A stretch of DNA of 64,000 nucleotides from Clostridia bacterium (GTDB lineage: Bacteria; Bacillota; Clostridia; Christensenellales; Aristaeellaceae): assembly GCA_017521565.1 (NCBI GenBank), contig JAFXCE010000031.1, positions 62,001 to 126,000 on the forward strand, in the 5' to 3' direction. Positions within the stretch are counted from its first letter, which is position 1. Every line of letters begins with the position of its first letter. The notes beneath the pieces were generated by a model. It ran no database searches and had not been told where the DNA came from. It worked only from the letters and a program-made list of their open reading frames with translations. Below are positions 15,391-62,782 of this stretch, one piece after another. A program made the position numbers and the translations under genes.

Positions 15391-15540
15391 TCATCGGTAT
15401 TGTCGTTCGTGTTCCTCCTCAATCATTCTCATCAGATCGCTCATGCGCATATCTAGCGCCTCTGCGATCCGCCAAAGGGTTTCCACGCTTGCACTCTTAC
15501 TGCCGATTTCAATCATTGCGAGATGACTACGCGCGATACC
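15391..15540 (-). pseudogene. Truncated XRE-family regulator remnant
   Basis: Read on the minus strand, this frame gives GIARSHLAMIEIGSK..., then 'VETLWRIAEALDMRMSDLMRMIEEEHE' and a stop. It aligns almost residue for residue with the intact small XRE protein at 16023-16217 (GVARSHLAMIENGKK...VDTLWRIAAALDLRLSELIRLV). The first helices are missing and the frame before 15540 no longer matches. It is a 5'-truncated copy, so a dead relative of the neighbouring regulator. Confidence 0.65.
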
Positions 15541-15691
15541 AGCCAATATTCAATCAAGTCACTTAAAGAAAACCATACAAAGATTCTTGTTGGCCATCAC
15601 AGTATATACCCAAGCCATTATTAGAAAAGTCTCTGCAATCAGCAGGATATACACAAATCAATGGAGTTTCACCTCTTTCAGGGCATAAGAA

Positions 15692-15720
15692 AAGCACCCT
15701 ACTCCACAGAGTAGGATGCT
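15692..15720 (-). terminator. Terminator after the Rpn remnant
   Basis: On the minus strand a stem (GCATCCTACTC with GAGTAGGGTGC, one wobble) is followed by TTTTCTT. It lies just past the stop of the nuclease fragment. Confidence 0.65.
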
Positions 15721-15771
15721 GTTGGTCACACTATGCAGTTAGTCGGTCAGACGCGGCTTGATCGACGATCC

Positions 15772-15999
15772 TCAGATCGCAGCAATGTAGCGGGCATAAT
15801 CGGACTCAGGGATCTTAAGCGCCTTCATTGCATCATGAACCGAAACATTGAAGCTTTCCATGATTCCAATGATAGCTTCAACTCTGGTCTTAAAAGCCGC
15901 ATCATTACGGATTTCTTCCATTGCTCTGCACATAACCGCCACTCCTTCCTCGTTCTCCTTGAAATATCTGACTCTATCAGCCAGAATACTGTAGTACAT
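15772..15999 (-). pseudogene. C-terminal fragment of an Rpn/PD-(D/E)XK transposase-type nuclease
   Basis: The 75 residues (ILADRVRYFKENEEG, 'MCRAMEEIRNDAAFKTRVEAI', ending in a small helical domain) match the C-terminal tail of the Rpn family. Those are recombination-promoting nucleases of about 250-300 residues, often annotated as putative transposases in Clostridia. The nuclease core is absent. The first codon has no ribosome binding site and the fragment overlaps the front of the divergent XRE gene. Treated as debris at the island edge. Confidence 0.6.
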
Positions 16000-16022
16000 A
16001 TAATAAACTGGCTATAGGAAAT

Positions 16023-16217
16023 TTGCGTACAAAGAAAGGAATGTCTCAGGAAATCCTCTCAGGGCTTTCTGGCGTAGCACGGAGTCATCTGGCAATGATC
16101 GAGAACGGGAAAAAGAACGCCAATGTTGATACGCTTTGGCGGATAGCAGCCGCGTTAGATCTTCGCCTCAGTGAATTAATACGCCTTGTCAAAAATGAAA
16201 TGTATCTTAATAGCTAA
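16023..16217 (+). CDS. Small XRE-family helix-turn-helix regulator
   Basis: The 64-residue protein is a complete helix-turn-helix from 'GMSQEILSGLSGVARSHLAMIENGKKN' to the C-terminal helix 'LRLSELIRLVKN'. The start is taken as TTG at 16023. The frame is open upstream for 17 codons (including 'KLAIGN', which is family-like) but has no ATG or GTG, so its natural N-terminus may have been lost where it meets the Rpn fragment. It could be a local repressor of island genes. A broken copy lies at 15391-15540. Confidence 0.7.
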   Translation: MRTKKGMSQEILSGLSGVARSHLAMIENGKKNANVDTLWRIAAALDLRLSELIRLVKNEMYLNS

Positions 16218-16218
16218 T

Positions 16219-16431
16219 TTAATCTTTTTTCTCAAAATTAGTGGAATAATACGTATCTCCGACTTTATGTGTAATTATCATATTGCTAGTATCAGCATCC
16301 ACAATACCGCATCCATATTTACGGGGAGGCATCCCTTGCCGCTTTCGTTTACGCTTGTCATGTTCTGCCCATGCAATATAGATGGTCATAACTACAGCAA
16401 ATACTAAACCACTAATGATTCCACCTATCAT
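16219..16431 (-). CDS. Small single-span membrane protein, unknown
   Basis: The 70-residue product has one N-terminal membrane segment (about residues 2-22), a basic stretch (KRKRKRQGMPPRK) and a polar C-terminal tail. The ATG at 16431 follows GGGAGG. It converges with the XRE gene, almost touching its stop. No family recognised. Confidence 0.5.
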   Translation of the reverse strand: MIGGIISGLVFAVVMTIYIAWAEHDKRKRKRQGMPPRKYGCGIVDADTSNMIITHKVGDTYYSTNFEKKD

Positions 16432-16635
16432 TTTGAGACCTCCCTGTGAATCGTTCGTCGCCTCAGCAATGTTTAATATGAGTATATCACGACTAGAAAT
16501 GCTCGTCCATACATAAGTGAGATGCTGATTACCTCCGATAGAAACACAACAAAAGCAATTCACAATTACCAGCCATAGACAATACCGAAAAAAAGGATTA
16601 AGATATACGTATAAGCATAAACAAGGAGGGATACG

Positions 16636-17667
16636 ATGCCTCTTGAGATCGTCCGCAACGATATCACGAAAATGAGCGTTGATGCAATTGTTAATGCTGC
16701 GAATACATCCTTGCTAGGCGGTGGCGGTGTAGATGGTGCTATTCATAGGGCAGCGGGACCTCAGCTGCTTGAAGAGTGCAAGGCGCTTAACGGCTGTCGA
16801 ACTGGAGAAGCCAAACTTACCAAAGGATATCGGCTTCCCGCAAAATATGTCATCCATACAGCCGGCCCCATCTGGCAAGGTGGTCAACAAGGTGAACGTG
16901 AACTTCTTGAAGCCTGCTATCGTAATTCGCTCGAATTAGCAACCAAATATAAATGTGAAACAGTGGCTTTCCCTATGATTTCGTCAGGTGTGTATGGATA
17001 CCCAAAGGCCCAGGCTCTTCAGGTTGCCATCGATACGATAACTCGCTTTCTTCTGGAACATGACATGACCGTCTATATTGTTGTGTTCTCAAAAGAAGCA
17101 TTCGAAATCAGTAGTAAACTCTTCAATGACATCACTGCTTACATTGACGACGTTTATGTTGACAAGCATCTGCATTCCCCAAGAGAGTCTACTCGTGTCA
17201 GACTTCAAAGCAAATATCTGAAGGAAGCTAAGGCTTATGCACGAAAAGATACTGCGGAATATTGCTCAACACCAGTGCTGGCAGATCTCAACCCATGTGC
17301 AAATCTTGATGAAATGTTGAATCAAGTGGATGAAAGCTTTGCAGAGATGCTACTTCGAAAGATTGATGAGAAAAACATCAGTGATGCGGAGTGCTACAAA
17401 AAAGCCAATATCGACAGACGCTTATTTAATAAGATTAAAAATAGTCCTTCATACAAACCCAGTAAACAGACAGTGCTTGCTTTCGCTATTTCCCTTGAAC
17501 TGACATTAGAGCAGACGAAGGAAATGCTTGAAAAAGCAGGCTTCGCTCTCTCCCACAGTAATAAATCCGACATCATTGTTGAGTACTTCATTCTAACTAA
17601 AAACTTCAACGTCATAGCAATTAATCAAGTTCTCTTCAAAATGGATTTGCAGCCCCTCGGCTATTAA
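16636..17667 (+). CDS. Macro-domain protein with C-terminal helical domain
   Basis: Residues 1-165 form a MacroD-type macro domain: [18 protein letters not shown] with the ADP-ribose-binding Asn and glycine loop, and SSGVYGYP. Such domains bind ADP-ribose and remove it from proteins, or hydrolyse O-acetyl-ADP-ribose. The C-terminal half (about 220-343) has an all-helical region with '[17 protein letters not shown]' and '[16 protein letters not shown]', a conserved helix-turn-helix-like extension seen on Firmicutes macro proteins. SD AAGGAGGG. It lies 77 bases before an ADP-ribosylglycohydrolase fusion, so the two probably act on related substrates. Confidence 0.9.
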
Positions 17668-17694
17668 TTTGTCGCTTACGAGGCGACCATCGCT

Positions 17695-17734
17695 CTCCTT
17701 GTTTTTGATAAACTGTATTCATAAAAACAAGGAG
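17695..17734 (+). promoter_or_regulatory. Hairpin that masks the ribosome binding site of the ADP-ribosylglycohydrolase gene
   Basis: CTCCTTGTTTTT (17695-17706) and AAAAACAAGGAG (17723-17734) form a perfect 12-bp stem with a 16-base loop. The right arm contains most of the Shine-Dalgarno AAGGAGG for the ATG at 17745. In the folded mRNA the site would be hidden, which suggests translational control. No T-run follows, so it is not an ordinary terminator. Confidence 0.65.
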
Positions 17735-17744
17735 GGCTTTCATT

Positions 17745-19238
17745 ATGATCGGAGCTATTATTGGAGACATCGTTGGTTCTGTCTATGAATTCAATAACAT
17801 CAAAACAAAAGAGTTTCCGCTTTTTACGCAAAACAGCAATTTCACTGACGACACTCTGATGTCGATCGCCATTGCTAATGCCTATCTGCTATCTAAAGGT
17901 GACTGCTCTGCTTTTCACCGTGAAGTAATCCAGCAAATGCGAAGAATTGCTAGCAAACACCCCTGCCCTAAGGGCGGATACGGTGGGCGTTTTCGCAGAT
18001 GGCTTTCGAGTGCTGACCCTCGTCCCTATGGAAGCTTTGGCAACGGATCTGCCATGCGGGTATCTGCATGTGGCGACTGTGCAGACTCACTCAGCATGGC
18101 TCTAGATCTGGCAACCATGTCTGCCAATGTAACGCATAATCATCCTGAAGGTATTAGAGGTGCTCGCGCTGTCGCAGCATCGATTTATCTGGCAAAAACT
18201 GGCGAAAGCAAAGAAACAATCCGTGAATACATTTCTTCCAATTTCTATCCTCTTAATATGACAATTGAAGAAATCCGTCCCACTTACCAATTCGACGAAT
18301 CCTGTCAAGGTACTGTCCCGCAGGCAATTACCGCCTTCCTCGAATCCACGAGCTTTGAAGACGCTCTCCGTACTGCTGTCTCGCTCGGTGGCGACTGTGA
18401 TACTCTGACAGATATCACCTGTGCAATTGCCTGGCCGTTCTATGCTAGAAGCGGTGAAGATGACACAATGAATGAATTACGCAGTAAGGCTCTTTCTCTT
18501 CTTCCCGGTGAGCTGCGCCAGATTGTCATAGAATGGGAAACTCGTTATTGTGGATACGTTTCGTCTAACCTCGGATCTCCTGTTACCCCAGTAAAACCTA
18601 GCTTAACCGAATTAGTATTCATCTTGGATCGTAGCGGCTCTATGAGTGGATTGGAACAAGATACGATCGGCGGTTTCAACTCCATGATAGAAAAACAGAA
18701 GCAGGAGCCTGGGCGGACAATTATCTCTACTGTCCTTTTTGACCACGCGACTGACGTCATTCACGATCGTATTGATCTCCAGTTTATTCATCCTTTGACT
18801 GAAAAACAATACTATGTTCGCGGTTCTACAGCACTTCTGGATGCAATCGGTAGTGCGATTCACCACATTGGTAACATCCACAAATATGCTCGGCGTGAAG
18901 ATCGACCGGCGCATACGCTATTTGTCATCACAACAGATGGCATGGAGAACTCCAGTCGTCGTTACAGCAGCGATCAGGTCAAACAAATGATTCAACGCCA
19001 AAAAGAAAAATATGGCTGGGAGTTTCTCTTCCTTGGTGCAAATATTGATGCAGTTGAAACCGCAGAGCATTTTGGCATCGATGCTGATCGGACGGTTAAC
19101 TATCATTGCGACTCTGAAGGAACTCAGCTAAACTATGAAGTTATCAGCGAAGCAATTTGCTCTGTCAGATGCAGTAAGCCACTTGGTCGTGAATGGAAGA
19201 AGCGAATTGACGAAGACTTCAAATCCCGCAAAAAGTAA
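17745..19238 (+). CDS. ADP-ribosylglycohydrolase fused to a VWA domain
   Basis: Residues 1-265 are an ADP-ribosylglycohydrolase (DraG-like) domain: GAIIGDIVGS at the start, FTDDTLMS with two metal-binding Asp, and GGDCDTLTD with the second metal set. Residues 285-490 are a von Willebrand factor A domain with an intact MIDAS: DRSGSMS, the Thr of RGSTALLDAI, and TTDGMEN. The enzyme domain would cleave ADP-ribose from proteins or small molecules; the VWA domain would bind a partner through a metal ion. It follows the macro gene and precedes a 60-residue protein. The target is unknown. Confidence 0.9.
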   Translation: MIGAIIGDIVGSVYEFNNIKTKEFPLFTQNSNFTDDTLMSIAIANAYLLSKGDCSAFHREVIQQMRRIASKHPCPKGGYGGRFRRWLSSADPRPYGSFGNGSAMRVSACGDCADSLSMALDLATMSANVTHNHPEGIRGARAVAASIYLAKTGESKETIREYISSNFYPLNMTIEEIRPTYQFDESCQGTVPQAITAFLESTSFEDALRTAVSLGGDCDTLTDITCAIAWPFYARSGEDDTMNELRSKALSLLPGELRQIVIEWETRYCGYVSSNLGSPVTPVKPSLTELVFILDRSGSMSGLEQDTIGGFNSMIEKQKQEPGRTIISTVLFDHATDVIHDRIDLQFIHPLTEKQYYVRGSTALLDAIGSAIHHIGNIHKYARREDRPAHTLFVITTDGMENSSRRYSSDQVKQMIQRQKEKYGWEFLFLGANIDAVETAEHFGIDADRTVNYHCDSEGTQLNYEVISEAICSVRCSKPLGREWKKRIDEDFKSRKK

Positions 19239-19251
19239 TGGAGGTATCGTT

Positions 19252-19434
19252 ATGAAGAACAAAGACAAGACAATTATGGGTGCGGTAAAAGAATCACTTA
19301 CAAAAAGTGATCGCTATTTCAGCAAACCAACTATCGATAACGCACAGCCCACCAAAGTGGTGACAATCGCAGATATTGATGCACGAATCGCACGTAATGC
19401 GCAAACCAAGGATGCAGCCGAGGAAAACAACTAA
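19252..19434 (+). CDS. Small hypothetical protein
   Basis: A 60-residue polar protein, MKNKDKTIMGAVKESL at the start, with an acidic C-terminus (TKDAAEENN). It has no membrane segment or known motif. GGAGG lies eight bases before the ATG and the gene starts 13 bases after the stop of the hydrolase-VWA gene, so they are co-transcribed. It may be a partner for the VWA domain; that is inference from position. Confidence 0.65.
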   Translation: MKNKDKTIMGAVKESLTKSDRYFSKPTIDNAQPTKVVTIADIDARIARNAQTKDAAEENN

Positions 19435-19458
19435 TACTTTATGGCAGCCAGTTTTCTA

Positions 19459-19487
19459 TTGACGCTGGATATCTCAAGTGCTATAAT
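19459..19487 (+). promoter_or_regulatory. Promoter of the riboswitch transcript
   Basis: TTGACG (19459-19464) and TATAAT (19482-19487) are 17 bases apart. The expected start, near 19494, is just before the first conserved bases of the riboswitch. Confidence 0.8.
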
Positions 19488-19493
19488 ATCATT

Positions 19494-19585
19494 GCCTATA
19501 AAGAGTGCGCGAGGGACAAGCCCGTTGACCGCACAGCAACCTGCCAGCCGGTAAGGTGCTAAAGCTTGCCGATGGGTAGATGCGT
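19494..19585 (+). ncRNA. S-box-type (SAM-I or SAM-I/IV variant) riboswitch aptamer
   Basis: The RNA carries the S-box core in order: AAGAGUGCG, the kink-turn and loop GAGGGACAAGCCCGUUGA, GCAACC, AAGGUGCUAA and AGAU. P2 is GUGCG with CGCAC, P3 is CCUGCC with GGUAAGG around AGCC, and P4 is UUGCC with GGUAG. A long P1 could not be found by eye, which is why a SAM-I/IV variant is considered. A terminator follows directly. CCGATGGGT (19569-19577) in the aptamer can pair with ACCCGTCGG (19595-19603) of the terminator, giving a plausible antiterminator. SAM-family binding is inferred from the conserved core. Confidence 0.75.
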
Positions 19586-19591
19586 TCACAC

Positions 19592-19621
19592 AACACCCGT
19601 CGGAAACGATGGGTGTTTTTT
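19592..19621 (+). terminator. Riboswitch-controlled terminator
   Basis: AACACCCGTCG (19592-19602) pairs with CGATGGGTGTT (19607-19617) across a GAAA loop, followed by a T-run. The left arm can alternatively pair with the aptamer's 3' part, so ligand binding would favour termination before the downstream gene. Confidence 0.85.
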
Positions 19622-19663
19622 CGTCCTCTTTAGCGGCAATCATTATTACAGGAGGACGTTATC

Positions 19664-19975
19664 ATGCGTACCATTGCTGCTCTCTTGAAGAACAACCCCA
19701 AAGTCTATGTTTGTTTTGCAAGCAACACCCTCTGTCGCTATTTCCTGAAAAACGCCGAAGAAGAAGGTTTTGCTTTCGGCACCAGCGTTCTGCCAACCCA
19801 GAAAGAGCCTGACAGCGTTTTGATTCTGAAATCTGATTGGACGATCTGCTACCTGAATAGCATTTCTCAGATGGCCTTTCGCGCTAACCTTCCTATTAAC
19901 GGAGTAAACATTCCCAAGGTCGACTATGGCAAGTATCTAGCTGGCTGGGATGATTATTCCTTCAGCAAAGAATAA
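19664..19975 (+). CDS. Riboswitch-controlled small protein of unknown function
   Basis: The 103-residue protein begins MRTIAALLKNNPKVYVCFAS and has a compact mixed alpha/beta look with 'EEEGFAFG' and 'KVDYGKYLAGWDDYSF'. I recall similar proteins of about 100 residues in Clostridia, but none with a known role. GGAGG lies well before the ATG. It is the only gene directly behind the S-box-type riboswitch and terminator. It has no resemblance to methionine or SAM synthesis or transport genes, the usual S-box targets. Confidence 0.75.
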   Translation: MRTIAALLKNNPKVYVCFASNTLCRYFLKNAEEEGFAFGTSVLPTQKEPDSVLILKSDWTICYLNSISQMAFRANLPINGVNIPKVDYGKYLAGWDDYSFSKE

Positions 19976-20460
19976 TCTTAAAACACAGAACAACAATGAG
20001 CGTAAACCTTCAGACATCAGAAAAAACTTGGCGCGGAGAACACCATACTCCGCGCCAGAACTGTTTTCACTAATTCAATTAGGTATTCCAAAGAACCTAC
20101 CGTTATACATCCAGTCTCATGTCTGGGTTGCCCTAACCTTTCTAATCGACTCGTTTAGACTCTAATTAGGTCAGTTAGGTCTTTGAAGTATTCTCATATG
20201 GTTTTAGAATACATGCAAGCTAACGAAAGATTTGTCGATTACTTTGTAGTAAGCCCTTTCTGCAAAATGCAAATCCAACAAAGACTATTTCATTTGTGCA
20301 GCATCCAATCTCATAACATCGTACATTTTCAAATCAAAGATACGCATGTTATAAGGCCAGCGTGTATCGTTATTGGAACAACTTGTAACCCAGTACTCAT
20401 TCTCCATAGTATTCTTTCAGGCGTTGACTGCTTGTTCTGGCAAGTGCCGCCTTTTTTTCT
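19976..20460. other. Gene-poor AT-rich stretch in the island
   Basis: These 485 bases follow the riboswitch-controlled gene. A weak inverted repeat (TTGGCGCGGAG... with CTCCGCGCCA) at about 20028-20059 could be a terminator for that gene, though its T-run is poor. I see no convincing coding frame. Confidence 0.5.
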
Positions 20461-20724
20461 TTATCCATCAATACGATCCGCATCGTCTAAGATTATTCGG
20501 GTAGCAGATATTACGGTATGGCCAGTTCGGTAAAATGCTAAGTAACCTCCAACATAGTTGACAGGCACAGCCTCAACTGTATCTCCGGCATGTTTATGTC
20601 CACCGCGCGCTATATACTGTTTGAATCTATTATCTCGCAGGGTAACTTCAATTTCTGCATATTCATCCGTTGCAGGTGACTCTTCAACAGGTTCTGGCTC
20701 TTGAACAAAACGATCAACAGACAC
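20461..20724 (-). CDS. Hypothetical protein, possibly a remnant
   Basis: An 87-residue product with an acidic start (EPEPVEESPATDEYAEIEV) followed by a compact segment 'LRDNRFKQYIARGGHKHAGDTV...VNYVGGYLAFYRTGHTVI'. The composition looks like a real protein, but the first codon is GTG without a ribosome binding site and an in-frame stop lies just upstream, so it may be the tail of a larger lost gene. No family recognised. Confidence 0.35.
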   Translation of the reverse strand: MSVDRFVQEPEPVEESPATDEYAEIEVTLRDNRFKQYIARGGHKHAGDTVEAVPVNYVGGYLAFYRTGHTVISATRIILDDADRIDG

Positions 20725-20799
20725 CTGAAACTTATTATGTCAGCTATTCTTACTAAGTATTTCAGCACATACGCTTCTCTCTCAATCTGAACTACCGAA

Positions 20800-20888
20800 C
20801 CCGCGAAAGCCCCCTACTGTTCTGCGAAAGGGGTACGATCCCGCAAAAGCCCTACTGTTCCGCGAAAGGGGTACGATCCCGCGAAAGC
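20800..20888. repeat. Tandem repeat of about 39 bases, 2.3 copies
   Basis: Two near-identical units of 40 and 38 bases (20800-20839, 20840-20877) and a partial third (20878-20888) start with CCCGCGAAAGC and end GCGAAAGGGGTACGAT. Within each unit GCGAAAG recurs in both halves. The array sits about 160 bases from the 3' end of the tRNA-Gly gene. Confidence 0.8.
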
Positions 20889-20900
20889 TTCTGGAAAACA

Positions 20901-20929
20901 AAAAAAGCACCCGGCAATAAGCCGAGTGC
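20901..20929 (-). terminator. Second terminator downstream of tRNA-Gly
   Basis: On the minus strand GCACTCGGC-TTATT-GCCGGGTGC (one mismatch) is followed by TTTTTT. It backs up the terminator at 21006-21041. Confidence 0.65.
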
Positions 20930-21005
20930 GTACCATATTCTGCTATTTTTGGGCAAACGTAGGCCCTTTTATCCCTTTTTACGCTCAAAAACTCGAAAAT
21001 ACATA

Positions 21006-21041
21006 AAAAAAGAACGAGCATTCTATCAAAATGCTCGTTCA
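21006..21041 (-). terminator. Terminator of tRNA-Gly
   Basis: On the minus strand an 11-bp stem (GAACGAGCATT with AATGCTCGTTC) is followed by TTTTTTTATG, five bases after the tRNA 3' end. Confidence 0.85.
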
Positions 21042-21045
21042 AACA

Positions 21046-21120
21046 TGGAGCGGTAGACGAGATTCGGACTCGCGACATCCACCTTGGCAAGGTGGCACTC
21101 TACCACTGAGCTACTACCGC
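21046..21120 (-). tRNA. tRNA-Gly(GCC)
   Basis: The minus strand folds into a standard cloverleaf: acceptor GCGGTAG with CTACCGC, anticodon stem CACCT/AGGTG with loop carrying GCC, T-arm with TCCGAAT, and an encoded CCA end. The anticodon GCC reads GGC. The 3' end faces the accessory island, the orientation expected if the island entered at this tRNA, but no repeated copy of the 3' end was found on the far side. Confidence 0.95.
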
Positions 21121-61408: not shown

Positions 61409-62782
61409 TTAGAAATCGCAGTTGCCCGGCGTACGGTGATACGGGATGACGTCGCGGATGTTCTCGATATCGGTGAGATACATCACCAGACGCTCAAAGC
61501 CCATGCCAAAGCCGGAATGCGTGCAGCCGCCAAAGCGGCGCAGGTTCAGATACCAGTCGAGAGACTCACCGGAGATGCCCAGCTGGTTCATGCGCTCCAC
61601 CAGCAGATCGTAGCGGGTCTCGCGCTGGCTGCCGCCCATCAGCTCGCCGGAACCCGGCACAAGCAGATCAACCGCAGCGACGGTCTTGCCATCGTCGTTC
61701 TGATACATGTAGAACGCCTTGATGTCCTTCGGCCAGTCATAGACAAAGACCGGGGACTTGAAATGCACGTCGCACAGATACTTCTCGTGCTCTTTGAAGA
61801 TATCCTCGCCGTACTTGGCTTCATGCTCGAAGTCCGCATTGGCACCCCGCAGGATGGTGATGGCCTCCTCGTGCGTCACACGAGCGACGGTAGAGGTGGT
61901 CAGCGCCTGCAGCTTTTCGATGAGGTTGCTCTTCGCGTAGCCCTACAGGAACTGGAGCTCCGGCATCGCCTTATCAAGCACTTCCCTCACAACCGTCTTG
62001 AGGAAGTCCTCCTCGATATCCATCAGCTGATTCAGGTCGCAGAAGCAGATTTCCGGTTCCATCATCCAGAACTCGGCCAGATGGGTCTTCGTGTTGGAAT
62101 TCTCCGCACGGAAGGTCGGGCCAAAGGTGTAGATGCGCTTATAGGCCATGGCGAAGGTCTCGCCCTCGAGCTGGCCGGTAACGGCCAGGGACGCCGGATG
62201 ACCGAAGAAGTCCTCCTCCGGCTTATAGGGCTTGCCCATCTCACAGGTGGTGACGGTAAAGGTGTTGCCCGCACCCTCTGCGTCGTTAGCGGTAATCAGC
62301 GGGGTATGCACATAGACATAACCGCGGGTCTGGAAGTAGTTATGCACAGCCTGCGCAGCGATGGAGCGCACACGGAACACCGCCTGAAACAGGCGGGTAC
62401 GCGGACGCAGATATGCGATCTCGCGCAGGAACTCCAGGCTGTGGCGCTTGGGCTGCAGCGGATAATCCTCGGAGCAGTCGCCCTCGAGCACAACCTGAGC
62501 GGCCTGCATCTCCAGCTGCCCCTTCGGGCTCATGACGAGCTTGCCAGTCGCGCAGATGGCTGCGCCGTTGCGGATGGCCTGCACGGCTGCAAAGCCCTCC
62601 ACGTTCTCGTCATAAACGACCTGCATCGGCGCAAGGATGGTGCCGTCGAAGAACTCCATAAAGCCAATATTCTTCTGCTTGCGATGATTGCGCACCCAGC
62701 CCTGAATGGCCACAGTCTGGCCCTCAAACGCCTTGGGATCCGCCGCGATCTCGCGCAGATCATACACCTTAATCTCGCTCAT
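61409..62782 (-). pseudogene. asnS: Asparaginyl-tRNA synthetase interrupted by an in-frame amber codon
   Basis: The frame encodes a class II AsnRS of 457 residues: an anticodon-binding OB fold ('TVAIQGWVRNHRKQKNIGF'), motif 2 'TFRAENSNTKTHLAEFWMMEPE' and motif 3 GFGMGFERLVMYL. At codon 280 (61943-61945) a TAG follows PELQFL and the same frame continues with GYAKSNLIEKLQAL to a normal end. Both parts are well conserved, and the interrupted site is a variable loop. It could be a sequencing error, a suppressed or read-through amber, or a true mutation. AsnRS is normally essential unless Asp/Glu-AdT replaces it. Confidence 0.88.

Follow-up and report, generated by a model that had tools for sequence, protein, structure and literature searches.

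Host systems built around ADP-ribosylglycohydrolases (ARG) were predicted in 2022 to counter viral ADP-ribosylation (Iyer and others; PMC9503650). These systems are described there as having ARG at their core, as occurring in actinobacteria, planctomycetes, and proteobacteria, and as often carrying Nudix or WYL regulators (one or the other in >42%) and phosphatases (in >55%). The ARG is found with a vWA domain, proposed there as a peptide-binding chaperone, and with no adjacent writer of ADP-ribose; Macro and NADAR are variable partners, and parts are replaced. A macro or NADAR eraser of ADP-ribose is likewise present in the toxin-antitoxin systems DarT-DarG and DarT-NADAR. The locus described here lies in a stretch of 64,000 nucleotides (hereafter, the window; positions 62,001 to 126,000 of contig JAFXCE010000031.1) from the genome of a Clostridia bacterium of the order Christensenellales (GCA_017521565.1; 3.08 Mb in 160 contigs, 85% complete). 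A block beside a tRNA-Gly gene in this window contains two independent, unrelated mobile modules: module A, comprising a macro-domain protein and an ARG fused to a VWA domain, and module B, comprising a SAM-I (S-adenosylmethionine, SAM) riboswitch and the 103-residue protein (p103) behind it. The best joint explanation, which is put forward tentatively and at somewhat less than an even chance, is that module A is an accessory eraser of foreign ADP-ribosylation and that module B is a phage-shared unit of SAM economy. Of the two modules, module B is the more surprising. The two proteins of module A are as follows.

16636..17667, forward strand: macro protein, a MacroD-type macro domain (residues 1-160) followed by a helical tail resembling a helix-turn-helix (HTH; residues 161-343); Pfam Macro, 1e-48
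17745..19238, forward strand: ARG-VWA, an ADP-ribosylglycohydrolase (residues 1-262) fused to VWA (residues 283-497); Pfam ARG, 6e-26

The best solved relative of the macro domain is MACROD1 (2e-49). The ~180 residues of the tail align with the C-terminal end of phrog_4031 (5e-9) and, weakly, with an HTH profile (E 0.16). Asn20, which we take to be the catalytic Asn, is kept in 42 of the 42 rows of alignment A1, and Asp33 and His37, presumably the loop Asp and His of MacroD-type hydrolases, are each kept in 41; the window protein has all three. For the ARG domain, the best solved relative is ARH3 (8e-10), and both TDD and GDxDT are invariant in the 13 rows of alignment A5, TDD and DxDT being assumed here to be the metal-binding motifs of ARH/DraG glycohydrolases. 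The VWA part matches phrog_7371 (1.5e-55), its Pfam VWA match falling under the cut-off of that family. Five of its positions are assumed to form the metal ion-dependent adhesion site (MIDAS), of which D13 is kept in 36 of 37 sequences and S15, S17, T80, and D116 in all 37. A first-pass annotation, made from the letters of the sequence alone, had described a macro-domain protein with a helical tail and an ARG fused to a VWA with intact MIDAS, and both descriptions agree with these matches.

A protein scan of genome contigs with ARG-VWA as query gave at least 572 relatives, and the best 80 of these were kept. In 64 of those 80 a tail is encoded no more than 6 kb from VWA, usually as part of a macro-tail protein upstream, and in 10 an ARG lies near VWA, in a set that is biased towards ARG by being ranked on likeness to the ARG-VWA fusion. 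The order was also sampled evenly, with 296 genomes and a strong tail match set at ≥120 bits. VWA was matched in 67 of these genomes and the tail in 79, of which 63 were strong; VWA and a strong tail occur together in 58 (Fisher p ~1e-45, a value that overstates independence since the sampled genomes are related), and a strong tail occurs without VWA in five. The tail is found on the contig of VWA and within 6 kb of it in 49 of the 67 VWA genomes, upstream and on the same strand in 48, and within 200 bp in 35. Strong ARG matches were recovered from 48 of the 296 genomes, and in 6 of these the ARG is no farther than 500 bp from VWA or tail; the ARG may be fused to VWA or form a separate gene upstream or downstream. 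These counts indicate that the conserved core is the macro-tail protein with VWA and that ARG is an optional partner. The first-pass annotation had instead grouped these genes with a 60-residue protein (p60) and p103 as one set, to be checked for co-occurrence across Clostridia. Macro, VWA, and ARG do recur together elsewhere, whereas p60 and p103 join them only here: p60 matched this genome alone (1/296; plasmids gave none), and p103 was matched in 3/296 and 5/391 genomes, the window's own being counted each time. A single five-gene island is thus rejected, and the gene set as first drawn does not stand as one unit.

Judged from the sequences, the substrate of module A is probably ADP-ribose carried by macromolecules that a foreign transferase, from a phage or in the form of a rival bacterium's toxin, has modified. 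The MacroD-type macro domain and the ARH3-like ARG would hydrolyse the ADP-ribose off these macromolecules, the VWA with its MIDAS would hold or select the modified protein, and the HTH-like tail would connect the enzyme with a partner or with regulation. A second type of ARG fusion bears on this reading (loci from the searches are numbered with the prefix L).

L148, 3465-5900 (this genome): ARG joined to HsdM at the N-terminus of the latter, with a second HsdM next to it downstream; Pfam ARG, 3e-30; N6_Mtase, 7e-95

N-terminal ARG-HsdM fusions are present in at least 4 of the 296 genomes (L148-L151), this one included, three being recognized by motif and L148 by Pfam. They tie this ARG clade to type I restriction systems and give independent support to an immunity reading of the cassette, and the macro-tail and VWA cassette would offer a concrete, testable case of bacterial immunity against foreign ADP-ribosylation. 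The earlier suggestion of an eraser without a writer of its own is strengthened by the co-occurrence, the recurrent ARG, the kept positions, and the HsdM fusions; it fails for the set as originally written.

MacroD and ARH3 enzymes act on O-acetyl-ADP-ribose, the NCBIfam label of the macro protein is O-acetyl-ADP-ribose deacetylase, and the genome has a sirtuin gene at another locus. Module A might thus scavenge O-acetyl-ADP-ribose or free ADP-ribose esters arising from the cell's own sirtuin, with no foreign writer involved. This is considered unlikely: the sirtuin gene is unlinked to the cassette, and neither the VWA, nor the patchy, mobile distribution (67/296 genomes), nor the ARG-HsdM fusions would be explained.

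A NADAR gene that adjoins VWA in L014 and a SIMPL domain fused to ARG in L110 also count in favour of the eraser reading. The copies in L006-L013 are accompanied by Y-family polymerase, YolD-like, and SIMPL genes. The polymerase and YolD-like genes stand between macro and VWA, as might be expected if module A reversed an endogenous signal, such as one of DNA damage, written by an unlinked host transferase, with VWA as a scaffold. We regard this as quite unlikely, given that L006-L013 look like one related mobile element, that most of the cassettes listed do not have these genes, and that no host writer was identified.

Relatives of ARG or VWA were found in 220 phage records. In one phage a putative writer stands beside a VWA homologue.

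L239, 2702-4630: phage XacN1 (Xanthomonas), PARP-like gene (PARP + WGR) directly upstream of the VWA homologue; Pfam PARP, 1e-22

Several results weigh against erasure of foreign ADP-ribosylation by module A. The macro loop Asp33 is replaced by Cys in L104, L106, L126, and L155, and the loop is changed in other ways in L100 and L110 (all by eye), suggesting that ADP-ribose hydrolysis may be dispensable at some loci. A strong tail is missing from 9 of the 67 genomes with VWA, and PADLOC gave no significant model for the macro protein or ARG-VWA. A total of 110 neighbouring proteins of the cassettes were scanned (110/261 usable references; 25/122 Pfam and 25/243 PADLOC families listed), and the families listed are mostly ordinary or generic, with those that can be recognized as belonging to defence systems (BrxA, McrBC, and a type I methyltransferase) each matching only 1 of the 110 proteins. 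In the phages, VWA was not found within 3 kb in 5 other PARP loci, and 6 other VWA loci gave no hit for the PARP of XacN1 or for macro, tail, or ARG. A general pairing of writer and VWA in phages was accordingly rejected, XacN1 being a single case among the loci examined.

Module A resembles the systems of PMC9503650 in combining ARG with vWA, in having Macro and NADAR among its changing partners, and in the exchange of parts, and it would work in a similar way. Neither an ADP-ribosyltransferase nor a sirtuin was among the 25 of 122 neighbour Pfam families listed. Compared with those systems, module A appears to have a different core (MacroD-tail and VWA, with ARG optional) and is found in one order of a Clostridia-type lineage. 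The Nudix, WYL, and phosphatase genes of those systems were not encountered among the ten window proteins scanned with Pfam (between 13.3 and 20.7 kb), where the only regulators are of the XRE/HTH type. The vWA proposed there as a chaperone corresponds here to a VWA with MIDAS fused to ARG, which may likewise be a chaperone. On these differences in core, lineage, and regulator, module A is filed as a variant of those systems rather than as a member. Membership in DarTG was rejected as well: DarT (PF14487) had no match in this genome, at 85% assembly completeness, and in contrast to DarT-DarG and DarT-NADAR the macro domain is MacroD-type and the partner is VWA. Domains and most catalytic positions are those of MacroD/YmdB hydrolases and ARH3-like glycohydrolases, from which module A differs by the HTH-like tail on macro and by the fusion of ARG to VWA (to SIMPL or HsdM elsewhere). 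A literature search of titles and abstract openings returned no report of a macro-VWA cassette or of a phage SAM riboswitch.

Tail-like domains were also observed without a macro domain, beside Hsp70-like and ClpP-like genes (L116). Tail-like HTH proteins beside Hsp70-like or ClpP-like genes in L116, L118, L120, and L127 (by Pfam for L116) form a separate recurring neighbourhood of the same order. A 625-residue protein at L122 (3590-5464) combines an HExxH-like stretch with a tail domain at its C-terminus and gave no Pfam match at 1e-3.

SAM-I regulons include metK and methionine genes, and SAM-I switches of the build seen in module B shut genes off when SAM is plentiful. Module B shares with these regulons the common platform of aptamer and terminator and differs in that its gene is that of a small orphan protein carried by phages and in that a hairpin over the Shine-Dalgarno sequence is added.

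19459..19487, forward strand: promoter TTGACG-17-TATAAT, 11/12 matches
19493..19615, forward strand: SAM-I riboswitch aptamer (RF00162), 62.3 bits against a gathering score of 44.4
19592..19617, forward strand: terminator stem of 11 pairs, then a T-run
19622..19658, forward strand: hairpin pairing the Shine-Dalgarno sequence, -11.1 kcal/mol, z -2.34
19664..19975, forward strand: p103, with SAM-I directly upstream in the window and in relatives

The riboswitch that the first-pass annotation had placed before the 103-residue protein is borne out by the aptamer score, and its linkage to p103 is nearly invariable. A total of 28 p103 loci, each counted once, were assembled (the window, L130, L131, L132, L133-L147, L159, L169, L211, L214, L215, and L230-L233), and in 27 of them RF00162 scores above its gathering score directly upstream; 21 of these 27 are viral. 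L214 and L215 are the contigs of L202 and L189, both of them rows of query A9 and first met by the riboswitch pattern, and when they are excluded the linkage is 25/26. L211 and L230-L233 were found with query A9 and are not rows of A9. Match rows are identical within L138/139, L140-142, and L144-147, so that the 27 include no more than 21 distinct cases. The p103 family is conserved as protein (mean column identity 62% in alignment A7), and protein searches found relatives in one annotated phage and in viral contigs, besides the few genomes given above, with no match on plasmids. Two points count against the reading of module B as a unit of SAM economy: L131 (E 6e-4, with an internal stop) is the sole locus of the 28 that lacks the riboswitch, and p103 has no known family, the window protein having no match in NCBIfam or PADLOC and the 15 members of alignment A9 no significant family in Pfam or PHROG.

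Similar promoter hexamers are found in p103 relatives (by eye), and, when each of 11 leaders was folded separately, the Shine-Dalgarno sequence was paired in all 11 (z from -5.83 to -0.83), the weak hairpins being those of L169 (z -0.83) and L130 (z -1.99). The arms of the hairpin vary yet stay complementary as judged by eye; the window, for example, has GUCCUC/GAGGAC where L134 has ACGCUC/GAGCGU. Long-range pairing of the 5' aptamer strand with the segment after the terminator was considered and dropped, as it is long only in L133 and L159 and elsewhere amounts to 6-8 bases or falls on the start codon.

Of 25 loci examined, 13, all of them viral, carry an N-terminal motif of C5-cytosine methyltransferases no more than 3.2 kb downstream of p103 and on the strand opposite to it; their neighbourhoods look alike by eye and the 13 are therefore counted as one related phage group. 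Six of the 12 methyltransferase-negative loci had <2.5 kb of DNA downstream. In L137, p103 converges on a Pfam-confirmed C5 methyltransferase gene, the two overlapping at their 3' ends, and a ParB/N6-N4 methyltransferase is next. This arrangement could mean that the p103 protein is of minor importance and that the riboswitch drives antisense transcription at low SAM that reaches the 3' end of the gene for the phage methyltransferase, an option that is very unlikely in view of the conservation of p103 as protein and of host loci examined that have no such methyltransferase. The four host loci in question (L153, L231-L233), where no C5 methyltransferase motif was found, also tell against a role of p103 in methyltransferase control, since the methyltransferase may be hitch-hiking in the phages.

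When viral contigs were scanned for the SAM-I core pattern, 34 stretches were obtained, of which 9 lead to p103 and 16 to MetK (L176, L179, L182-L185, L188, L192-L194, L196-L198, L205-L207; by Pfam for L183). The other 9 include small orphan open reading frames (ORFs) and some probable chance matches. A ParB-type methyltransferase is often found behind the riboswitch-linked viral MetK (by eye). Small orphan ORFs behind a viral SAM-I core were seen in L180, L187, L190, and L201, the protein of L201 being p103-like by eye.

Phages keep p103 under a SAM switch, some copies have methyltransferases beside them, and other viral contigs place MetK under a similar switch. The simplest reading is that p103 guards the pool of SAM, and it probably does protect SAM supply. 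The leader probably responds to SAM: when SAM is scarce the terminator should stay unformed and p103 should be made, and the protein would then spare SAM, either through restraint of a DNA methyltransferase or through help with SAM supply. Host copies of p103 stand alone or near other mobile genes, as they might if p103 served phages in some unrelated way, with the SAM switch only timing its expression to host starvation. That possibility is rated as rather unlikely, because the 16 of 34 viral stretches in which a SAM-I core leads to MetK indicate SAM itself. A wider proposal that extends the SAM-guard reading, and which must be called doubtful, is that p103 represents a new family of phage-shared SAM-guard proteins, made only at low SAM and doubly controlled (in transcription by SAM-I, in translation by the Shine-Dalgarno hairpin), that would restrain DNA methyltransferases or raise SAM and be used where other phages use a riboswitch-controlled MetK; under the same proposal, VWA would be a shared ADP-ribosylation adaptor of host erasers and, in XacN1, would stand next to a PARP-like writer. 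If true, phages meter the methyl donor of their host. Phages and mobile DNA carry, in this unit, a predicted SAM sensor dedicated to a small orphan protein, and phage management of host SAM becomes directly testable with a protein of 100 residues and a leader of 200 nt.

The remaining features of the block are listed below.

15391..15546, reverse strand: XRE regulator fragment; HTH_3, 3e-7, covering profile positions 18-54 only
15772..15999, reverse strand: 75-residue ORF with no family; best match E 0.079
16023..16217, forward strand: small XRE regulator with a TTG start; HTH_3, 4e-13
19252..19434, forward strand: p60, orphan, starting 13 bases after the ARG-VWA stop
21046..21120, reverse strand: tRNA-Gly, at the border of the variable block

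The positions of the ORFs, riboswitch, and tRNA-Gly agree with the first-pass annotation, and its AT-richer block is confirmed by comparison with the rest of the window: 2-kb windows with starts at 15-19 kb have a GC content of 0.42-0.46, and all others one of 0.48-0.60. For its statement that the window has no transferase, the Pfam scan covered the ten proteins between 13.3 and 20.7 kb out of 64 kb. The block is larger than the 15391..21045 first proposed. In G211, a genome of the same genus, synteny holds for tRNA-Gly and recR, the next gene homologous to one of the window corresponds to ~10.2 kb, and no region matches ~10.3-21.04 kb, the whole island thus being absent; this gap sets the greater extent of the variable block. 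The p60 ORF, present as first described, begins at an inner ATG of a longer ORF (19135-19434). What had been called regulator and nuclease debris retains its regulator part in the HTH_3 fragment, and its nuclease part was not confirmed, the 75-residue ORF having no better match than the one listed; the small XRE regulator was correctly called. XRE-coding DNA is present in two inverted copies, 73% identical (15437-15542 and 16069-16174), on either side of that ORF.

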